52,910 bases of DNA, taken from the IMG/VR virus record IMGVR_UViG_3300013108_000349, positions 1-52,910 of that record; one strand, given 5' to 3'. This document shows, piece after piece, positions 1,618 to 36,296 of this stretch. The stretch's first letter is position 1. Every line of letters starts with the position of its first letter. The notes under the pieces were generated by a model. The model did not search any database, was not told the DNA's origin, and saw nothing but the letters and a program-made list of their open reading frames with translations. Origin of the DNA: a virus. The position numbers were made by a program, and so were the translations under genes.

Positions 1618-2550
1618 TTATCTCCTGATGTAAGGTGTGTTTTCTATAAATCTAAAAACATTTTGCCAGCTATTTTTAAAATCTTCTTGTGAAGTGAATA
1701 CATATTCTTTGGCTATTTTTTTAGTATTGTTAATAGCAGCAAGTTGCTCTTGGCTAAACCCACCATTTAAAAACTGCCTTAAAGTATCATTTACGTTTTG
1801 TTCATTCACTAAAAAATAACATTCTTTAGGTATTTCAGAGGTAGCAAAAGAAACAACAGGTATTTCGTTTGCCATACAATTTATTGTGTCTTCGTCTAGA
1901 TTTTGCCAAAGATTTAAATATATGCCTGCTTCTTCACTATTCTTTGTAATCTCTAACCCTGCAAAAATATTAGCAGGCAACCCCTGTAGGTATTCATCAG
2001 GCACAGACCTTGGAACTAAAACCTTCTTTGCTTCAATTGGATTTACATTTAGTACTGGAGCAAGAGGTTTGATCGGCACAGCTACTTTTTGAAAAGGTGA
2101 TTGCCAAGAAGTGCTAACTTGTTCATTAATACCAATGGTAATATGGCCTGATCTTTTTAACAATGTTTCTCTATCAGTAATGTTTGAACTTGCAAAGAAA
2201 GGAATAGGTGTCATCATTTCAGAACTTGCAAAGTCAATTAATATAACTGGAACATGAAGATAGCTAGAAACAGATATGGCTTCTTCATACGATCTACCTC
2301 TGTTAATAACTATTATAGCATCAATATCTATTGGTGATTCATTACTTTTTATGATTTCAACATTGTTTGGTCTAGCCCAGTTTCTTATCCATCTAGAGGT
2401 TTGAAACCTGTTTTCAAATAAGTAAAAATTAATATCATTAAAACAATACCCAAGACTAAATACATAGCTAGTATAAGAGTCATTAAACAATAATACATTT
2501 AACTTTTTGTCTTTTTGAGCAGACCTAGTTATTGAGTTTATCGGATACAT
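1618..2550 (-). CDS. Putative GT-B glycosyltransferase
   Basis: A 310-residue protein with the two-Rossmann look of GT-B enzymes. The N-terminal half starts with a hydrophobic strand ('KLNVLLFNDSY') and alternates strands and helices. The C-terminal half has 'GIYLNLWQNLDEDTINCMA' followed by 'EIPVVSFATSEIPKE', similar to the region where family 4 enzymes bind the nucleotide-sugar (typically E-x7-E plus 'G.PvvA'). The canonical E-x7-E pair is weak. It overlaps its upstream neighbour by 13 nt, indicating one transcription unit with the other glycosyltransferases. Donor and acceptor cannot be told from sequence. Confidence 0.55.
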   Translation of the reverse strand: MYPINSITRSAQKDKKLNVLLFNDSYTSYVFSLGYCFNDINFYLFENRFQTSRWIRNWARPNNVEIIKSNESPIDIDAIIVINRGRSYEEAISVSSYLHVPVILIDFASSEMMTPIPFFASSNITDRETLLKRSGHITIGINEQVSTSWQSPFQKVAVPIKPLAPVLNVNPIEAKKVLVPRSVPDEYLQGLPANIFAGLEITKNSEEAGIYLNLWQNLDEDTINCMANEIPVVSFATSEIPKECYFLVNEQNVNDTLRQFLNGGFSQEQLAAINNTKKIAKEYVFTSQEDFKNSWQNVFRFIENTPYIRR

Positions 2551-3611
2551 ATTAATTCCTTTAGTTTTGCATATGATTGTTCTTTATGAGTATTTTTAAA
2601 CAACTCTCTATTTGTTAAACTACTGCCAGTTTTAGCACAAGTTTTTAAAGCCTTGCATAAAGCAGGAGTGTCCGGTACTTTCCAATAATGTTTTCCTGAA
2701 TACATATTGGGCAAAGGTCTATTATTTTTTTGACACACATCAGTCCTACTTAATACAGGATAGCAACCTTCTAAAAACATTGCAGTATCTAAAAGGATAG
2801 GTCTTGATTTTCCCATCAAACATTCTAATATCTCTTGATTCGTAGAAATATTATAGCCAACATTGATATAGTAGTCGTAATTAAGATGAGCGTATGCTAG
2901 TGCTCTAGGGTCATTACTTATTATTGCTATATCTGGATAATGTGTAGAAGAACCGTAGCAGTTCATTTTTGCTTTAATTTGTTCAACCATGTTTTTAATC
3001 ATTTCTGAATCATTATCAAAAACAATCAAAATAACATTGTCTATTGAAGAAAAACAATTATAGTACGCTGTTAGTGTCTCCATAAGGCCGCTATCATCAT
3101 CTGGCCCAGCAGTGGTATAAAACACAGTTTTATTTTCTAGTTCTGGAATATCTAAAGTTACTACTTCTTTTGGTTCACTTAGAACCGGAGGAAAGTCAAA
3201 AGCAAATATTTTACTTTCTTTTATTCCTGATTCTTTTAGTAATTGTTTTTCAAAAGGAGAAAAAACACAAATCTTATCAAACAGTTTTAAATTTTCAACC
3301 CAGCTTAAATTATCTATACGGCAATCGACTTTAGTAATTGCTATATTGTAATTAAAATCGCCTTCATAATTTAGTGTTTCAGGCAAGCCATGTTGTATAA
3401 TAACATCTTTTTCTTCTACATAAGAATGTTCTTCTTTTATTTCACCCAAATCAACTATATTGTTTGAGTAGTAAAGAGGTCTAGCTACAACGTTTTTAAC
3501 AGTATGTATTAGCAACTGCAAGAAAGCCCTGCTGGTTTTTCCCCATTCGTCATTTTGTCTATAAGGACCAATATATAATACTTCCTTATCTAGTAATTCT
3601 ATCGCTGTCAT
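2538..3611 (-). CDS. Putative GT-B glycosyltransferase
   Basis: A 357-residue protein. It begins with a strand-glycine pattern ('EVLYIGPYRQNDEWGKTSRA') like the acceptor domain of GT-B enzymes, then 'KICVFSPFEKQLLKESGI', a common feature of family 4 enzymes just before the inter-domain linker. 'TVFYTTAGPDDDSGLMETL' marks the beginning of the second Rossmann fold. The C-terminal 'NQEILECLMGKSRPILLD' resembles the donor-binding acidic and glycine segment. The start codon overlaps the upstream stop as ATGA, so translation is probably coupled. Membership in the family is inferred; the sugar is unknown. Confidence 0.6.
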   Translation of the reverse strand: MTAIELLDKEVLYIGPYRQNDEWGKTSRAFLQLLIHTVKNVVARPLYYSNNIVDLGEIKEEHSYVEEKDVIIQHGLPETLNYEGDFNYNIAITKVDCRIDNLSWVENLKLFDKICVFSPFEKQLLKESGIKESKIFAFDFPPVLSEPKEVVTLDIPELENKTVFYTTAGPDDDSGLMETLTAYYNCFSSIDNVILIVFDNDSEMIKNMVEQIKAKMNCYGSSTHYPDIAIISNDPRALAYAHLNYDYYINVGYNISTNQEILECLMGKSRPILLDTAMFLEGCYPVLSRTDVCQKNNRPLPNMYSGKHYWKVPDTPALCKALKTCAKTGSSLTNRELFKNTHKEQSYAKLKELICIR

Positions 3612-5251
3612 TTTCTTAGTCCTTCGTGTGCTTGTTTAATAAATCCATGCTGTAGTTCTAGGGGTGTATTAGAACATCTTAATTGATCTAAAGCAAATCT
3701 TTTTTCAGAGATATTTCTACATTCTTTAAAAACCGTTTCTTGAGTACAGGGCGATAGGTTTCCACCATCTATTATTGCCCCAAAGTTTAAGTTTCTTAAA
3801 TTACTTAACATTTTATGATTGAACATATTATATCCATCTTGAATCATAGCGGAATAAACCCATTCACAGAATTGAATATTTGAAAGATTTTTAATTGGTT
3901 CTTTAGGAATAGGTTTTATGATAGGTGGTATATTCCAATCAAGATTCTTACTCAAATCCACTTGGTCAAAATAATCTTGCCAAGCATTAGCGGAAATATC
4001 CCAAGTGTATCTTTCAATACAGTTTTTCCTAGTTTGAATTCTTTGTTGTTTTTTCTGCTCTTTAGTTTGTTTTGCAAAAGCTTGCATTGCTTCAACAAGT
4101 GCTTTGTTGTTTGGGTTGCTTCTATCCGCATTAGTTTCCATTTCTCTTTGAAGCATCGGCTCGATGGGATACCCTTTGGTGTAGGAAACTATATCTTCCA
4201 TAGCACTATAATTAATAGAAGCTATAGGTGTTCCGCACGCTGCTGCTTCAACTTGAGGCATACCAAAACCTTCGCAAATTGCATACTGAACATACAAATC
4301 CATAGCATTATATATTTTATGTAGTTCTGAGTGTTCTATTCCGTTTTGAACACTAGGTAAAGATGCTGCAAAACTTCCGCATTTATTACATGTAGTTAAT
4401 GCGTCTCTATAATGACAGGAGAAAAATTGATTACAAGACCTACAAACATATGTACATAATAACTTAGAACCAATCCCGTATTCATGAGCAAGGGAAGTAA
4501 TATTCCATCCCATTTTTTCAGGATAGCTTGTATGAATGTATAAGAAAGACTTTTTTCTTGTCTCTTCGTCTGTAGTATCTAAAAAGGTTTTAAAGGCTTT
4601 CATTAATTCTGGAAACATTTTTCTCTTTTGATTACGCATAACAGTGCCAAATATGATACTGTCTGTAGGCAGACCTAAAGAAGCTTTATGGTTATCTTTA
4701 TTAGGAATAATATTGAAGATTACGGGGTCAATAGCAGGAGAAGCACATCCATGTACTTTAACCCTTCCTTTTGTTTGTTTTTCTATGGTTCTTATTCCGT
4801 ACTCAGAATAAGCCATTAGCCCATCACACTTATTAAACCAATAAAGCCATTCATTTTTTTGTGGTTCGCTATCAATTGTTGGCATCCATACCCAATGAAA
4901 AAATGGTAGATATGGGCTGTCAACTATATAAGAATCCATCCAAGGATCACGATATGTAACAACAATGTCTGGTTTAAAATCCAATACTGCTAATTCAAAT
5001 TTGTGAACCCCCCATTGTACTACTGGGTTTTTATGTTGCTCTGCATAGTCTTTTTCTCCACGCATAGGAGCATTGCCATATATTAACCAGTCACTATCTT
5101 TTACTGTGTCCGGTGATCTATAGCAAGAAAATTCAGCTATCTCATATTTTCCAGAACTATGTATCCTTTGCAATATTTCTTTAGCATATGTACCAAAACC
5201 AGAAGCTAGTTCTGTTGACTCTGTTACGAATAATACTCTTTTCTTATTCAT
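3608..5251 (-). CDS. Family 4 glycosyltransferase with an inserted zinc ribbon
   Basis: A 547-residue GT-B glycosyltransferase. The N-terminal domain starts 'RVLFVTESTELASGFGTYA', typical of family 4 enzymes that pass a sugar from a nucleotide donor with retention of configuration. The donor domain shows 'EGFGMPQVEAAACGTPI' near residue 327, the conserved E-x7-E type motif. Between the domains, at about residues 266-292, sits a CxxC...CxxC cysteine cluster ('VCRSCNQF' and 'CNKCGS') that looks like a zinc ribbon and is not usual for the family. A C-terminal extension of about 130 residues is unassigned. It overlaps its neighbours on both sides, so it belongs to the same transcript as the sigma factor gene upstream. 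Confidence 0.8.
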   Translation of the reverse strand: MNKKRVLFVTESTELASGFGTYAKEILQRIHSSGKYEIAEFSCYRSPDTVKDSDWLIYGNAPMRGEKDYAEQHKNPVVQWGVHKFELAVLDFKPDIVVTYRDPWMDSYIVDSPYLPFFHWVWMPTIDSEPQKNEWLYWFNKCDGLMAYSEYGIRTIEKQTKGRVKVHGCASPAIDPVIFNIIPNKDNHKASLGLPTDSIIFGTVMRNQKRKMFPELMKAFKTFLDTTDEETRKKSFLYIHTSYPEKMGWNITSLAHEYGIGSKLLCTYVCRSCNQFFSCHYRDALTTCNKCGSFAASLPSVQNGIEHSELHKIYNAMDLYVQYAICEGFGMPQVEAAACGTPIASINYSAMEDIVSYTKGYPIEPMLQREMETNADRSNPNNKALVEAMQAFAKQTKEQKKQQRIQTRKNCIERYTWDISANAWQDYFDQVDLSKNLDWNIPPIIKPIPKEPIKNLSNIQFCEWVYSAMIQDGYNMFNHKMLSNLRNLNFGAIIDGGNLSPCTQETVFKECRNISEKRFALDQLRCSNTPLELQHGFIKQAHEGLRK

Positions 5252-5699
5252 CTTTATTTGCTTCTCTCAATCTGATTAATAGGTTGTAGAATTTATTTTT
5301 AACCGAAGATGGCGACTGATCTAAAATCTTACATATTTCTCTAAACTTGTATCCAGCCTGTCTTAATTTAATAATACTTTTTTCTTCTTCGGTCATATCT
5401 GCTGTAAATAACTCCCAAAGTCTTTCCTTATGTTGAGCATCAAAACAAGTATTTTCGATTAAAGATAAAGTCTTATGGTTGTTTTGATTTTTTATTTCTC
5501 TAATTATCGACCATCTAATAGGTCGCCAAGCATATGTAGAGAGAGCATTACCGGATTTAAGGTCATATTTTTGTAAAGCTTTCCATAAACCAATTCTTCC
5601 CGCATCCATCAAGTCTTGATGCTCAGTGTGATTTTTGGGTTTGAATTTTTTTACAATATCTACAACCAACCCCATGTTTTCTTCTATTAAATCATCCAT
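5244..5699 (-). CDS. Sigma-70 family RNA polymerase sigma factor
   Basis: A 151-residue protein with the layout of small sigma factors. 'NMGLVVDIVKKF' and 'DLMDAGRIGLWKALQKYDL' match region 2, which binds core RNA polymerase, and 'LSTYAWRPIRWSIIREIK' matches the -10 recognition helix. The C-terminal half, 'MTEEEKSIIKLRQAGYKFRE' and then 'SPSSVKNKFYNLLIRLRE', is a region 4-type helix-turn-helix for -35 recognition. The gene would redirect host RNA polymerase to phage promoters. An AAGGA ribosome site precedes the start, and a TATAAT-like box lies in the 12-nt gap from the upstream polymerase gene. It sits at the end of the replication block, just before glycosyltransferase genes. Confidence 0.88.
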   Translation of the reverse strand: MDDLIEENMGLVVDIVKKFKPKNHTEHQDLMDAGRIGLWKALQKYDLKSGNALSTYAWRPIRWSIIREIKNQNNHKTLSLIENTCFDAQHKERLWELFTADMTEEEKSIIKLRQAGYKFREICKILDQSPSSVKNKFYNLLIRLREANKDE

Positions 5700-5711
5700 A
5701 TGTTATCCTTA

Positions 5712-7337
5712 TTATATACATTGTTTCAGCTTTTGTACCTTCTTAATAATAAAACTTCCGAATTTTTCATCTTTAGTTCCTCTAAACAACAATACCTTTC
5801 CAATAGATACGGCTTCTTTCATTCTTTTCCAATCATCAGAAAATATTGTCGTGCTGTCTAAAGTACAAGTGCCGTCACTCAATCTTAAAAATGCCATGAC
5901 TGAACCCTTGTGTTTTCCATTCTTGGTTTTCCATTCTCTTATATCTTCTACCTGTGCGGCGATAGCTATTGAATTTGAATCAAAACCCTTTAGATATTCT
6001 CTACAAGTACAGTTTGCGTCCATAGTATCATATTCATCTACTTCTGAACATGTAAGTTCTATACCCATAAGGTCTCTTTCTTTTTTTGCCCTCCAAGAAG
6101 GTCTATCGACCAACTCATAAGGTGGTTCTTTTAAAGAAATTATACAACTTCTTAAAAACTCAATATTTTTATCCGTCCAAGCATTTCTTCTTCTATTCTT
6201 TACAATATCATCTATACATTTTTCAATACCTCTGATAAAAGTTTTAGAATTATCATTAGAAAGGAATGTTTTATCCCTATCCTTTATTTCTTTGTAAACA
6301 TTAAATTGGTAAATCATTTTTGATCTTTGCATCTTATAACAATCAAACGCTCCCGCTTCAATCATTGATTCAAAAGAATTACTTTTTATAAATCTTCCTA
6401 GACGCATCAAAAACTCTTCCCAACTCATTCCATAAATATCAATTTTACTATCTTTAATGTAACCTTCTAGTTGGTCAAAAACGCTTTCGCCTACATTTTT
6501 AATATTTGTAATTCCAAATGTCGGAACATTATCAACCAAGCAAAACTCTTTTTTCATTTGCATGATATTAGGAGGCATAACATCAATATCCATAGCTCTA
6601 GCATTACTAACTAAGTCGTTTACCTCTAGCAGAGGCTTGGGTTTACCCTTTGCATGTCTTAGATATGAAGTAAAGAAGGCTCTAGGAAAGTGTGCTTTGC
6701 AATAAGCTGTTTGATAACCATTGATAGCATAGCTTACACTATGGCTTTTATTGAAAGAATATTTTTGAGATTTCTCGATCCAACTAAAGATTTCTTCTGC
6801 TTCTTCTTTGTTTATCATCTTTAATTCTTGAGAACCCTTGATGAACTCCTGTTTAACTTTAGCCATAAGTTCAACATTCTTTTTACCAATAGCCTTACGA
6901 AGATTATCGGCTTGCTCTAGGGAAAAGCCAGCGACCAACTGTGCAATCTGCATGGCTTGCTCTTGATATACTAGAATACCATAGGTACTTTTTAGAATAG
7001 GTTCAAGAACCTCAAATTCATAAGCTACAGCATCTTTTCCTGATTTTCTATCAATATAGTGATTTGTCAAAGACTTACCTTTAACCATAGCGTCACCACA
7101 ACCCGGTCTAATAATAGCATTTAGGTCTGAAAGTTCTTCTATATTTCTAGGCTTGACTTCTCTAGCTTTACTTTGTCCTAGTTGAGATTCCAGTTGAAAA
7201 ACACCTTTGGTATTTCCTTCGCAAATCATATCCCAAGTTTTTTGACAATTCAATGGCAATGAATCAATATTAGGATTAAATATAGGCAAACCGTTTTCGT
7301 TTTGTTCAAATTCACAACCACATGAAAATTTAATCAC
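5712..7337 (-). CDS. dnaE: DNA polymerase III alpha subunit, C-terminal half
   Basis: A 541-residue protein corresponding to the fingers and C-terminal parts of bacterial DNA polymerase III alpha. Near residues 37-80 it has 'TKGVFQLESQ' and 'LNAIIRPG', hallmarks of the fingers. 'YQEQAMQIAQLVAGFSLEQA' and 'FNKSHSVSYAINGYQTAYCK' follow in the order seen in DnaE. An OB-fold-like domain near residues 450-535 ('IAIAAQVEDIREWKTKNGKH') ends the protein. The PHP domain and palm with all catalytic aspartates are in a separate gene (8269-10155). No intein sequence flanks the break. The two products presumably assemble into one polymerase. Confidence 0.9.
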   Translation of the reverse strand: MIKFSCGCEFEQNENGLPIFNPNIDSLPLNCQKTWDMICEGNTKGVFQLESQLGQSKAREVKPRNIEELSDLNAIIRPGCGDAMVKGKSLTNHYIDRKSGKDAVAYEFEVLEPILKSTYGILVYQEQAMQIAQLVAGFSLEQADNLRKAIGKKNVELMAKVKQEFIKGSQELKMINKEEAEEIFSWIEKSQKYSFNKSHSVSYAINGYQTAYCKAHFPRAFFTSYLRHAKGKPKPLLEVNDLVSNARAMDIDVMPPNIMQMKKEFCLVDNVPTFGITNIKNVGESVFDQLEGYIKDSKIDIYGMSWEEFLMRLGRFIKSNSFESMIEAGAFDCYKMQRSKMIYQFNVYKEIKDRDKTFLSNDNSKTFIRGIEKCIDDIVKNRRRNAWTDKNIEFLRSCIISLKEPPYELVDRPSWRAKKERDLMGIELTCSEVDEYDTMDANCTCREYLKGFDSNSIAIAAQVEDIREWKTKNGKHKGSVMAFLRLSDGTCTLDSTTIFSDDWKRMKEAVSIGKVLLFRGTKDEKFGSFIIKKVQKLKQCI

Positions 7338-32261: not shown

Positions 32262-32552
32262 TTATCTTCTCCAAAAATTGTAATTGTAGTTGATACTAGG
32301 CTGTACTCCATAATAGTTAAAAGTTCTAACTTGTGGAATGTGGTAAAAACCTGCATTTACTCCCACGGTCACATTTCTTCTGTAAGGATCAACATAAACA
32401 TTGTTTACGTTCAGAGTTGTGCCTTGTGGAATCCAAACAACATGTGGTTGATAACCAATAACCCTGTGACTATGGTTATGCCAAGGCCAGTGTGCGTTTG
32501 CCGTAGAGCTAAAAAGCAGGAAAGCAAACAGGGAAATTATTATATTTTTCAT
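32262..32552 (-). CDS. Small secreted protein (96 aa)
   Basis: A 96-residue protein with a clear signal peptide ('MKNIIISLFAFLLFSSTANA', then His and Trp). The mature part is rich in Asn, His, Tyr, Val and Pro, with several 'HxxxW' and 'NYYG' elements, suggestive of an extracellular, beta-rich protein. It starts by overlapping the DUF1501 stop with ATGA. No known family. Secretion in the host envelope is inferred from the signal. Confidence 0.68.
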   Translation of the reverse strand: MKNIIISLFAFLLFSSTANAHWPWHNHSHRVIGYQPHVVWIPQGTTLNVNNVYVDPYRRNVTVGVNAGFYHIPQVRTFNYYGVQPSINYNYNFWRR

Positions 32553-33778
32553 ACTATATCCTTTAAAATATTCTTAGAGTCTTCTTTTACGATACTGTGA
32601 GGTCTGCCATCCGTAGCAGTGTATCGCGTTAGTTTTATCATGTCAAGATGATCGTAAATAGTCCAAGCCAAATCTTCTGGCCCGCATCTACCTTGGTCAA
32701 AGTCGTCAGCATTAGGACTAGATGCCCCAATAGTGCGTCCCATTTCATAGCTACCGCAACTAATCATAAGTGGTGCAAGTTTTCCGAAGTGGTCGCGACC
32801 TTGGTTTGCATTGACCTTTGGAGTACGGCCAAACTCAGAAGTAACAACAAGCATAACACGCTCGTACATTCCTCTCGCTTCTAGTGTATCCATAATCTTT
32901 GCTAGGTAATGATCTAGTTCTACCTGTCTGGTTTGTAGCGAGGTTGCTATATTGGTGTGCATGTCCCAACCGCCATAACTTAATGATACAAACTTAGAAC
33001 CAGCCTCTAGAAGTCGAATCGCAGTAAGGGCGTCCTGCCCCAAGGTAGCATCCTTGAACTCATCATAATCTGGATCGTTTTCAAAACGGAAAGCTTTTGA
33101 GCCGTTACCTAAAATAATATCAACAGACTGGTTGCGAAGATCACTCCAATCTTTTGCCATTTGTTGTTCTTTTGCGATAAAATTACCATCAATTATATTA
33201 AGGGCGTAGAGTCTACGCTTGAAGTCATCACTTTTACCAAGCAGTTGTAGGTCTTTTCTGCCCTCTCTAGTAGCATCAAACCCTGTGTACTTTCCTCCAA
33301 GCCAAGCTGCTCCATTGTGATCGTAAGAGCCTAGCTTAACATATGTTGGCAATCCATCATCTGTATTCACACCGTGATGCTTGCTCATCATACTACCATA
33401 ACTAGGCCACTTTGAGCTAGTACCAGCACCAAAGTTTGCTTCGCCTGTAACAACCCAGTGGACAGCAGATGCGTGATTCTGGTCCCTGTGACCAAACGCT
33501 CTAGGGATTGCGATTTTATCTGTACGCTTAGATAGCTCTGTGAACAAGCCGCCTAGCTCTACGCCTGCGACATTAGTTTTTGTAGCTCCGGTCACAGATC
33601 GCCGGTCAGCAGGAGCAAATGGAATAGGATTAAAGGTCTCAATATGACTAGCACCGCCGCCAAGAAAAAGGAACAATACTGCGGTATCGTCTTTTTTTGT
33701 ATCGTCTGCGTAAGTCGCTGTAATATTTCCACAGGCAAATGTAGTTGCTCCTAATTTAACAAAATCTCTTCTTTTCAT
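32549..33778 (-). CDS. DUF1501 family protein with twin-arginine signal
   Basis: A 409-residue protein of the DUF1501 family, abundant in Planctomycetes. 'MKRRDFVKLGATTFACG' is a twin-arginine export signal. The family pattern follows: 'GGGASHIETFNP', 'FGHRDQNHASA', 'SYGGWDMHTN', 'VTSEFGRTPKVNANQGRDHF' and a C-terminal 'ATDGRP'. DUF1501 proteins resemble the alkaline phosphatase superfamily (metal-binding Asp and His) but their role is unknown. It is in a transcript with a dockerin gene, a LamG gene and another twin-arginine protein. Its G+C looks higher than the neighbouring phage genes, suggesting transfer from a host. Confidence 0.9.
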   Translation of the reverse strand: MKRRDFVKLGATTFACGNITATYADDTKKDDTAVLFLFLGGGASHIETFNPIPFAPADRRSVTGATKTNVAGVELGGLFTELSKRTDKIAIPRAFGHRDQNHASAVHWVVTGEANFGAGTSSKWPSYGSMMSKHHGVNTDDGLPTYVKLGSYDHNGAAWLGGKYTGFDATREGRKDLQLLGKSDDFKRRLYALNIIDGNFIAKEQQMAKDWSDLRNQSVDIILGNGSKAFRFENDPDYDEFKDATLGQDALTAIRLLEAGSKFVSLSYGGWDMHTNIATSLQTRQVELDHYLAKIMDTLEARGMYERVMLVVTSEFGRTPKVNANQGRDHFGKLAPLMISCGSYEMGRTIGASSPNADDFDQGRCGPEDLAWTIYDHLDMIKLTRYTATDGRPHSIVKEDSKNILKDIV

Positions 33779-33982: not shown

Positions 33983-35496
33983 TATCCCACTCCTAAAAGC
34001 AATGCGTTAATAGAACCACCCCCACTAAGACCGCCTTCTTCTCCCCTTGCTGTAGATAAGATGCTTATCTCTTCATCAGATAAAACCCTTTGATAAATGC
34101 GAATATCATCAAAGTACAGCGACTCCGATGCTAAATTCCCCGCATAACCATCGAAATTTGACCATCCAAGATAATGATTTTGAGTAGCCTCAATCTCATT
34201 TCCAGCAAAACCTCCAGTGGCTTTGCTGGTTCCGTCAACAAAAACCTCTACTTCATTGGTGGTATAATTTCGTGTAAAGACTAGATGATGCCAGCTACCA
34301 TCATCGCTGCGTGGAACATCCGACACTGAAACACCGCCATTATTTACACCGTCATCAGCAAACGAACTTAAAAAACGGGTACTGTTGGTTCTCCGAGTAC
34401 CGTACCACTCAACCCCTGCTCCACTATCTTCGGGACCAATGAATGTAGTATTTGGGTCGCCACCATCCAGATTTGCTGTGAATTTAACCCAAATCGCAAA
34501 GGTGGTATCACCCGTAAAGTTGGGACTGAGTAATGCCGGTAGCTTAACTCTTGTTGTGGACGATACAGACATTTCAAAGGCAAAAAAGCCACCTGATCCC
34601 GTATCTGAAACAATCGAAAATGTTCCTTGTTTTTCTCCGTGGTAATTGTTTCCACTTAGATCACTTGTAGACTGATCCAAGGAAGGAGCGATCCATAAAA
34701 TCTCATCGCCCAATCCTGTGTACGAGTTTGCAGCATTTCTGCCAGCGGAAAGTTCTGTGATTTGTGACTGTGTTAAAACCGTATCCCACATTCTAACATC
34801 ATCTATTCGACCCTCAAACGGATAAAATATAGAACCGGTTAGAGTTCCGCCAGCAGTACGCTCTCTGATTGCACCAATCGAGTAATCGGCCCTTGTTCCT
34901 ACAACATTACTGTTTACAATACTTGTTGGCTGGGTTCCGTTTGTAAAGTATTGCTGCGTTCCAGAATATTTTACCCCATCAATATAACATATTATTCTAT
35001 TTTGAGTGGTTGAAAGGTTGGTAGCTGGTTCGTTTGCGTCATAGGTAAAAAGTACATGATACCATTGGTCTGCGTTTGGAATGGGGGCGAATACTTTTAG
35101 CCACTCATTATCAGTGTTTGACACCGTGGGATCGTAAAATCCGTTGCGAAAATATAAATCGTCACCAATCCTTCTTATCTGAATATTTCCTTTGTTCATT
35201 GCGTGATTAGCAACGATTATTTGAATACCTGTTCCAGATTCATATTTAACCCACGCACTAACGGTACATGTAACAGAACTATCAAGATCGGCAAAAGCAC
35301 CGTCTGCAAAGTGGCTGTCAACGGTGGGGAGGTCTGGAAGCGTGTCAAAAGCCGATGTTCCACCCGAATCTGTATCAGCGGTAATTTCGCCACCGTTATA
35401 GATGGTTAAATTTCTACCATTCCCAGAAATGTCGTTCAGACCACCATTAGCACCGCGACCAGCATTATGATGAATTAAAGGGGTTGGGATAGCCAT
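33982..35496 (-). CDS. Double LamG/concanavalin-like lectin protein
   Basis: A 504-residue protein with two concanavalin-like domains. Domain one spans about 20-230: 'TVSAWVKYESGTGIQIIVAN', 'ADQWYHVLFTYDANE', 'ICYIDGVKYSGTQQ'. Domain two spans about 265-480: 'TTFAIWVKFTANLDGG', 'GSWHHLVFTRNYTTNEVEVF'. Both end in 'FEGRIDDVRMWDTVL' or 'YFDDIRIYQRVLS', typical of LamG jelly-roll folds. It has no export signal. The C-terminus 'GGGSINALLLGVG' is short and glycine-rich. It may bind carbohydrate as a tail fibre or adhesin. It overlaps the dockerin gene by 22 nt. Confidence 0.78.
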   Translation of the reverse strand: MAIPTPLIHHNAGRGANGGLNDISGNGRNLTIYNGGEITADTDSGGTSAFDTLPDLPTVDSHFADGAFADLDSSVTCTVSAWVKYESGTGIQIIVANHAMNKGNIQIRRIGDDLYFRNGFYDPTVSNTDNEWLKVFAPIPNADQWYHVLFTYDANEPATNLSTTQNRIICYIDGVKYSGTQQYFTNGTQPTSIVNSNVVGTRADYSIGAIRERTAGGTLTGSIFYPFEGRIDDVRMWDTVLTQSQITELSAGRNAANSYTGLGDEILWIAPSLDQSTSDLSGNNYHGEKQGTFSIVSDTGSGGFFAFEMSVSSTTRVKLPALLSPNFTGDTTFAIWVKFTANLDGGDPNTTFIGPEDSGAGVEWYGTRRTNSTRFLSSFADDGVNNGGVSVSDVPRSDDGSWHHLVFTRNYTTNEVEVFVDGTSKATGGFAGNEIEATQNHYLGWSNFDGYAGNLASESLYFDDIRIYQRVLSDEEISILSTARGEEGGLSGGGSINALLLGVG

Positions 35497-35912
35497 ATTT
35501 TTTCTTCTTTCATTATAGTGTCTGTGTTATATTCTACAATAGGTAACTGTTCCGATTCCCCATAAGAATTTTGTTGCCTTGCTAAATAATTAAGAACAAG
35601 TAACGCATCTAAAGCACTTGCTCTGCCATCATTATTAACATCGTAGAACACTTCTGGATGAGGGTCTACACTAGCAGGATCAACTAATTCATAGCTCTCT
35701 TGAGAGTCTGTATATTTTCCAAGAGCCATTTCGTTAAGAATAATCAAAGCATCAAGAACTGTTGTTTCGCCTTGATTGTTCACATCTGTAGGTTCTGCGT
35801 AGTTATGCCAAGTGGGTTCTCCGCATTCTTCTGGTTGTGGAGCAGGAAAACAAATATCTGCTGCCATCATATTTCTCTGACTTAGCTTTTCTATTTTTAA
35901 TTTTCTTTTCAT
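35475..35912 (-). CDS. Dockerin-repeat protein with a planctomycete-type N-terminus
   Basis: A 145-residue protein. 'KLSQRNMMAADICFPAP' matches the 'LExRxLLAAD' N-terminal signature of planctomycete surface proteins. Two dockerin-type EF-hand repeats follow: 'EPTDVNNQGETTVLDALIIL' and 'YDVNNDGRASALDALLVLNY', with Asp, Asn and Gly at the calcium-binding positions and the hydrophobic helix after. Such repeats anchor proteins or bind cohesin-like partners. AGGGG precedes the start. Finding it in a phage is a strong host hint. Confidence 0.88.
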   Translation of the reverse strand: MKRKLKIEKLSQRNMMAADICFPAPQPEECGEPTWHNYAEPTDVNNQGETTVLDALIILNEMALGKYTDSQESYELVDPASVDPHPEVFYDVNNDGRASALDALLVLNYLARQQNSYGESEQLPIVEYNTDTIMKEEKIWLSQPL

Positions 35913-35937: not shown

Positions 35938-36245
35938 GCCAGTTTGGATAATAAGGTACTGGCAAACCCCAGACAGCTTATGCTGCCAATGCGAGACTTT
36001 CATCTGCAATTAAAAATTTAGAACCGTTTTAACGTAGCCTCAGTTCCAACTACGGATTGCAATTATTACATCATATTGTGGATCGAATCTATTTCACCCC
36101 CGTATATGGGAAGGGGATAGGGAATCGAACCCTATCGCTTCATCAGGACTTTTCCGTTGGGTCCAACGGGAGTTTCCCAAATCACATCAACCTGATCCCT
36201 CGCGAAAATTAAGTGGAGGTGTGCGGTACTGCCCCGCAGTCTCCG
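35938..36245 (-). ncRNA. ssrA: Circularly permuted transfer-messenger RNA (tmRNA)
   Basis: tmRNA rescues stalled ribosomes and tags the unfinished protein. Here the parts are in permuted order. First comes the T arm (TAGGG-TTCGATT-CCCTA, 36134-36118), acceptor strand TCCCCTT and CCA (36109-36107). After a 5-nt spacer comes the 5' acceptor strand GGGGGTG (36101-36095) and the D-loop motif GATTCGA (36089-36083). A pseudoknot follows: CGTAG/CTACG (36054-36050, 36037-36033) with GAACTG/CGGTTC (36046-36041, 36026-36021). Then the tag frame, 36007-35978, reads ADESLALAA-stop. The acceptor pairing has two G-U and one mismatch, and a classic G3-U70 pair is not obvious. Outer ends are estimates. Confidence 0.9.
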
Positions 36246-36275
36246 ACAACATCAATAATAACGTCTACAATCATA

Positions 36276-36296
36276 CCTTATTATACTCTAATAAGG
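36276..36296 (-). repeat. Perfect inverted repeat overlapping the tmRNA promoter
   Basis: CCTTATTA and TAATAAGG separated by 5 nt form a perfect 8-bp inverted repeat. It covers the TAG stop of the small Cys-rich gene and the TATAAT box. It could be an operator or an RNA hairpin; there is no following T run, so it is not a normal terminator. Confidence 0.6.
36280..36285 (-). promoter_or_regulatory. Promoter -10 box (TATAAT) for the tmRNA
   Basis: TATAAT on the minus strand in the context GAGTATAATAAGG, with TTGTAG 18 nt upstream as a possible -35 box. It lies about 35 nt upstream of the first tmRNA hairpin. It is embedded in a perfect inverted repeat, so it may be regulated. Confidence 0.6.

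Follow-up and report, generated by a model that had tools for sequence, protein, structure and literature searches.

The window, the entire 52,910-bp stretch of DNA analyzed here (34.9% GC), is a phage fragment that encodes a DNA polymerase in two parts, a DnaB-like helicase, a primase, RNR, and SSB. On its minus strand, between a 256-aa protein and a 32-aa Cys-rich open reading frame (ORF) on one side and a dockerin and LamG pair on the other, lies a tmRNA gene. A cmscan search of the whole window had tmRNA as its sole target, with two matches: tmRNA_permuted (RF04321) at 36272-35978 (-), with 96.0 bits (gathering cutoff, 47 bits), E 1.9e-17, and model positions 1-213 of 213, and alpha_tmRNA (RF01849) at 36296-35970 (-), with 75.8 bits. 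The preliminary description had proposed a permuted tmRNA gene on this strand of a phage, naming Infernal and ARAGORN as checks; Infernal with both Rfam models bears it out. ARAGORN made no tmRNA call in the window, nor after in silico deletion of the intervening sequence (IVS, or spacer), and called permuted tmRNAs with the same tag in several relatives. The gene has the following parts.

36280..36285 (-): TATAAT box upstream of the tmRNA, seen by eye; a promoter scan found no two-hexamer site here
36214..36272 (-): acceptor piece (Rfam alignment, covarying helices), with the 5' halves of two outer helices (GATTG and GTTATTA), half of a D-stem-like helix (TGT-C-GGA), the T arm, and the acceptor 3' strand
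36222..36238 (-): T arm TGCGG-GGCAGTA-CCGCA (Rfam alignment), with the noncanonical, alphaproteobacterial-type T loop GGCAGTA
36215..36221 (-): acceptor 3' strand CACCTCC, partner of 36101-36095, 100% paired in 16 homologues
36214 (-): discriminator A73; CCA is not encoded after the acceptor piece
36102..36213 (-): IVS of 112 nt, which processing should remove; its length varies among relatives
36107..36134 (-): tRNA-3'-end-like element within the IVS (TAGGG-TTCGATT-CCCTA, 7 nt, C, CCA)
35978..36101 (-): coding piece through the tag stop codon, with the acceptor 5' strand, a D-loop-like region, the helix 3' halves, PK1, and the tag
36101-36095 (-): acceptor 5' strand GGGGGTG, the start of the coding piece
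36018..36054 (-): pseudoknot PK1, CGTAG/CTACG crossing TTGGAAC/GTTCTAA, with double changes in 9/12 pairs
35978..36007 (-): tag frame ADESLALAA-stop with resume codon GCA (GCA GAT GAA AGT CTC GCA TTG GCA GCA TAA)
35938..35963 (-): downstream hairpin GCCAGT...ACTGGC, 3' domain of the tmRNA (covariation helix 8)

The order is permuted, in that the acceptor piece (36272-36214) and the IVS (36213-36102) precede the coding piece, which begins at 36101. About 20 related phage loci were collected by pattern scans of IMG/VR and by a protein scan with the neighboring 256-aa protein, and 16 phage homologues were aligned with the IVS removed. Over the 48 pairs counted, 92.2% of cells are paired and 35 pairs have changes on both sides; the covariation score is 0.532, against 0.197 +/- 0.014 in shuffled alignments (0/500) and at most 0.09 with the strands slid. 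Strong covariation extends over eight helices. The T arm (36238-36222) has 97.4% of cells paired and double changes in 5/5 pairs, and the PK1 helices (6 and 7) are 95.0% and 93.6% paired; the hairpin at 35963-35938 has double changes in 5/6 pairs but is 71.6% paired, weaker than the other helices. All seven pairs of the acceptor stem form in 16/16 sequences, three of them covary, and G3-U70 is invariant (16/16).

These pairings revise part of the earlier anatomy, which had placed the T arm, the acceptor 3' strand, and CCA at 36134-36107. A real tRNA-3'-end-like element does occupy those positions, but it is not the T arm or acceptor 3' strand of the tmRNA: the covarying partner of GGGGGTG is CACCTCC at 36221-36215, with the T arm at 36238-36222. 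The G3-U70 pair had been reported as missing and the acceptor stem as having one mismatch because the wrong, downstream strand was used; the pair is present and the stem is fully matched in every homologue. Likewise, the spacer had been described as extremely short, at 5 nt, a length that does occur in relatives, but that of the window is 112 nt. The 5' acceptor strand (GGGGGTG, 36101-36095), the pseudoknot (PK1, 36054-36018), and the tag ADESLALAA, read directly from its frame at 36007-35978, stand as first described.

Tags in this group always end in A(L/M)AA. The commonest, kept in most relatives, is ADESLALAA, which we read directly in the window, L172, L178, and L196; other relatives have ADENLALAA, AEPSFALAA, DVETYALAA, ADVSFAMAA, AGRNVAMAA, and ANASFAMAA. 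Conservation of the tag, together with a pseudoknot and other helices that covary, implies selection on both structure and tag and thus a gene that works or did so until very recently. The window gene is almost certainly a phage-encoded, alphaproteobacterial-type permuted (two-piece) tmRNA, whose processing, charging, and tagging we infer. No tmRNA was detectable in relative G004 or in two contigs of relative G046, and the tmRNA is therefore accessory; the close relatives G001 and G002 do not inform its presence or absence, since their alignments to the window stop short of it.

The spacer varies in length among the relatives. Counted as the bases after A73, it measures 5-35 nt, 112 nt (the window), or 602-612 nt (7 loci) across 18 related loci; spacers of 5 nt occur in L134, L135, L139, L140, L171, and L196, and those of 13-35 nt in L141, L174, L194, and L136. 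Together with its relatives, the window locus makes up a family of two-piece phage tmRNAs whose spacers range from 5 to 612 nt. The closest sister phage (IMGVR_UViG_3300032277_002333, L030/L172), syntenic with the window and 84-93% identical to it in most pieces, has the same tmRNA and tag, and its IVS holds an ORF of 182 aa (L030:4477-5025) whose TGA stop codon falls within the sequence that opens the coding piece, GGGGGTGA. The encoded protein matches PHROG endonuclease and HNH families (best, 2.4e-28) and had no Pfam match; its AlphaFold model, with a pLDDT of 58, was not taken to fold search.

A protein scan with this HNH sequence gave 17 family members, the query included, and the SLDRID and Cys motifs are invariant in the 12 that were aligned. 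Seven of the genes lie in the IVS of a permuted phage tmRNA (L177-L183). Six others (L184-L188 and L190) follow a standard one-piece tmRNA and share its orientation, at a distance of 65-70 nt from its 3' end. The gene of L191 neighbors a standard tmRNA and runs opposite to it, that of L189 is cut by the contig end, and no tmRNA was seen in L192 and L193. More distant relatives in crAss-like phages adjoin group I introns, which fits a homing endonuclease family; no intron was found by Rfam in the HNH/tmRNA loci.

Alleles with and without the endonuclease gene could be compared in two pairs, L172 with the window and L178 with L196, by counting flank identity in 20-nt bins outward from the IVS. 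Within 40 nt of the IVS, the window and L172 share 75 and 55% identity on the left and 75 and 85% on the right, but in the two bins beyond these, to either side, they are 95-100% identical. The endonuclease-bearing L172 and L178 are 100 and 90% (left) and 100 and 95% (right) identical in the first two bins, and their left flanks beyond 60 nt are 30-55% alike. The same dip beside the IVS recurs between L178 and L196. By this measure, the flanks are co-converted in both plus/minus allele pairs.

The leaders of the HNH genes carry a further mark. In 7/7 of them the ribosome-binding site is sequestered in a hairpin (z, -2.6 to -6.3) whose loop contains a TATAAT-like box (a variant in L183). The same arrangement is found in I-TevI and SegB of T4 and in MobE of Aeh1, and I-TevI is translated only from transcripts that start inside the hairpin (PMC2988022). 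By analogy, the HNH protein would not be translated from pre-tmRNA that reads through across the acceptor stem. The acceptor strand recurs as CCAYCTCCACC where the HNH element starts, which at first suggested a target duplication; the repeat is more readily accounted for as the strand lying over the ribosome-binding site.

HNH genes are plentiful in phages and homing cleavage is predicted here, so the sister-phage genes could be ordinary phage genes that came to these positions by chance recombination. We regard this as unlikely, because 13/17 family members either occupy a tmRNA IVS or follow a co-oriented tmRNA at 65-70 nt, flanks are co-converted in two allele pairs, the ribosome-binding-site hairpin is that of the T4 homing endonucleases (PMC2988022), and distant relatives sit beside group I introns. 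Judged by their sequences, the HNH genes carry the hallmarks of homing, and their products would be expected to cleave DNA. The spacer of the permuted phage tmRNA is probably a dedicated homing site. A tmRNA-specialized HNH family, whose members lie immediately 3' of the acceptor 3' strand in permuted and standard genes alike, would use the processed-out spacer as a safe house, as other homing endonucleases use self-splicing introns; the 112-nt insert of the window would then be some other occupant and might block homing. These loci suggest a simple way for a selfish endonuclease to inhabit an RNA gene with no self-splicing intron involved, since maturation of the RNA would itself remove the insert.

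The window itself represents an allele free of the endonuclease, with a different short insert in its IVS. The IVS opens with CACTTAATTTTCG, the 13-base start shared with endonuclease-bearing L182, and continues with unique sequence, at whose end a T arm is followed, at exact tRNA spacing, by seven bases, a discriminator, and CCA. A descriptor of T arm, 8 nt, and CCA occurred once in the 52.9-kb window (both strands) and in 0/20,000 shuffles of the spacer. Beyond the 13-base start, the insert had no relatives among the related loci, and the IVS core had no exact match in viral contigs, weak phage matches being mostly T arms. The insert may have arisen by capture of a tRNA 3' end, or it may be what remains of another mobile insert. 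Its T arm and CCA at exact tRNA spacing would also suit a functional tRNA gene nested in the IVS or an attachment site copied from a host tRNA, and the 2025 tmRNA database includes one permuted gene with an intact tRNA-Ala in its IVS, and one with a repeat there (PMC11915505). Either is improbable for the window, whose IVS gave no Rfam tRNA match up to E 10 and no tRNA by ARAGORN at default settings; its relaxed ARAGORN score of 32 is no better than those of neighboring random matches (28-34), and its fold energy equals that of shuffles (z, -0.14). The nested tRNA was accordingly rejected as unsupported by tRNA models, and the attP reading because no integrase was found in the window record. 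A hammerhead-like CTGATGA in the IVS was set aside as well, since GUC and CUGAUGA are not linked by a stem I and Rfam gave no match.

The architecture of the gene, its covariation and tag, the polymorphism of the IVS, the HNH genes within IVSs, and the co-converted flanks are features of the sequences themselves; the pathway proposed for the RNA is modeled on known two-piece tmRNAs. The transcript would fold with the acceptor strand at 36221-36215 paired to 36101-36095, host RNase P would cut before 36101, and the other end would be trimmed to A73 (36214) and receive CCA, the 112-nt IVS being discarded. Charged with alanine via G3-U70, the two-piece RNA would act with host SmpB to rescue stalled ribosomes and add the tag (A)ADESLALAA, whose ALAA end would suit ClpXP-type proteases. 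The IVS tolerates inserts, be it the HNH gene of the sister phages or the other short insert of the window. No SmpB (PF01668) was found in the window record or in 16 related or comparison phage records (17 in total, several of them fragments), and the SmpB of the host must presumably serve. For many tRNA-like genes and phages, it is usual for CCA to be unencoded and for SmpB to come from the host. That the gene is a decaying or nonfunctional copy, captured for example from an alphaproteobacterium and giving no working tmRNA, is very improbable, for although the long spacer insert, the unencoded CCA, the lack of an ARAGORN call, and a phage without an SmpB partner could be read that way, the missing CCA and SmpB are commonplace, the acceptor stem is paired 7/7 with G3-U70, the T arm, PK1, and tag frame are intact, and covariation is strong across 16 phages.

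Phage tmRNAs are few in databases, with 79 unique ones in the 2025 tmRNA database (PMC11915505), and no usable blastn match for this family was found in 50,697 phage records. Two-piece tmRNAs of phages have nonetheless been published, among them that of Melnitz, and make up 53 of 133 unique phage tmRNAs in one survey (PMC9004378), so the case for novelty first suggested from the phage location is weak. The window gene resembles RF04321 and RF01849 in gene order, G3-U70 acceptor, alpha-type T loop, outer helices, PK1, resume codon, and tag, and differs in its phage setting, its 112-nt IVS with a tRNA-3'-end-like insert, the lack of an encoded CCA, and a short, 9-residue tag. With Melnitz and the Pelagibacter phage ssrA (PMC9004378) it shares a phage-encoded permuted tmRNA of alphaproteobacterial type, with no SmpB found in the present phages; the Melnitz gene was reported with a glutamine riboswitch (PMC9004378), whereas the window has none at Rfam cutoffs.

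Endonuclease genes within tmRNA genes also have a precedent, in the LAGLIDADG homing endonuclease genes of group I introns in bacterial tmRNA T loops (PMC11915505). In both cases the endonuclease gene lies inside the tmRNA gene near the T arm and acceptor, but the T-loop introns are self-splicing and interrupt unpermuted genes, whereas the sister phages have HNH genes in the IVS of permuted genes and no intron by Rfam. The likeness to T4 I-TevI, SegB (in a tRNA region), and Aeh1 MobE (PMC2988022) lies in the ribosome-binding-site hairpin with a promoter-like box, the co-converted flanks, and the phage setting, and insertion beside RNA genes is common to SegB and the sister-phage HNH genes. I-TevI and SegB, however, are GIY-YIG enzymes of the td intron or a tRNA spacer, and cleavage has been shown for the T4 enzymes; the present genes occupy a tmRNA spacer and encode predicted HNH endonucleases. 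A search of open-access papers turned up no earlier account of permuted tmRNA spacers that harbor an HNH endonuclease gene. The window tmRNA by itself adds to the published phage two-piece tmRNAs, and the endonuclease-invaded spacer is what is new.

The probable planctomycete host of the preliminary description is weakly suggested by a subthreshold Planc_extracel motif (E 0.0069) at the N terminus of the dockerin protein and by a DUF1501 protein; the genes for the DUF1501 and dockerin proteins lie at 32549-33778 and 35475-35912 (-). The sole genome match of the DUF1501 protein, 91% identical, is JABXKB010000239.1 (L168), a contig in a Lokiarchaeota MAG that has two contigs similar to the window phage. 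These are probably misbinned phage contigs, and inference of the host from bacterial homologues was therefore rejected.

Several other arrangements were seen near phage tmRNAs. In L134, L135, L139, and L140, tRNA genes (Glu or Asn) begin at the 3' end of the permuted tmRNA, and the ARAGORN gene predictions overlap. In the viral contigs L144, L145, and L148, a sequence resembling the start of a tmRNA (GGGGCTGAAATAGATTCGA) occurs together with a tag-like frame, ...SYALAA; L144 and L145 have a tRNA-like sequence immediately upstream. L203 (IMGVR_UViG_3300033143_002446, 2528-7007) has a permuted tmRNA with the tag ANASFAMAA and, by eye, a spacer of roughly 190 nt; this tmRNA adjoins a GOLLD RNA and about 22 tRNA genes. 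The one-piece tmRNAs upstream of the HNH genes of L184-L188 and L190 (at about 1042-2055) have, according to ARAGORN, unusually long tags of about 24 aa (AKTAKYKGHIS...). Directly upstream of the tmRNA in the window, at 36386-36288 (-), the 32-codon ORF MSKSEEKEATFTKEELLKRGSCCGCGCRNCPY is also present in L030 and represents a small conserved Cys-rich protein.
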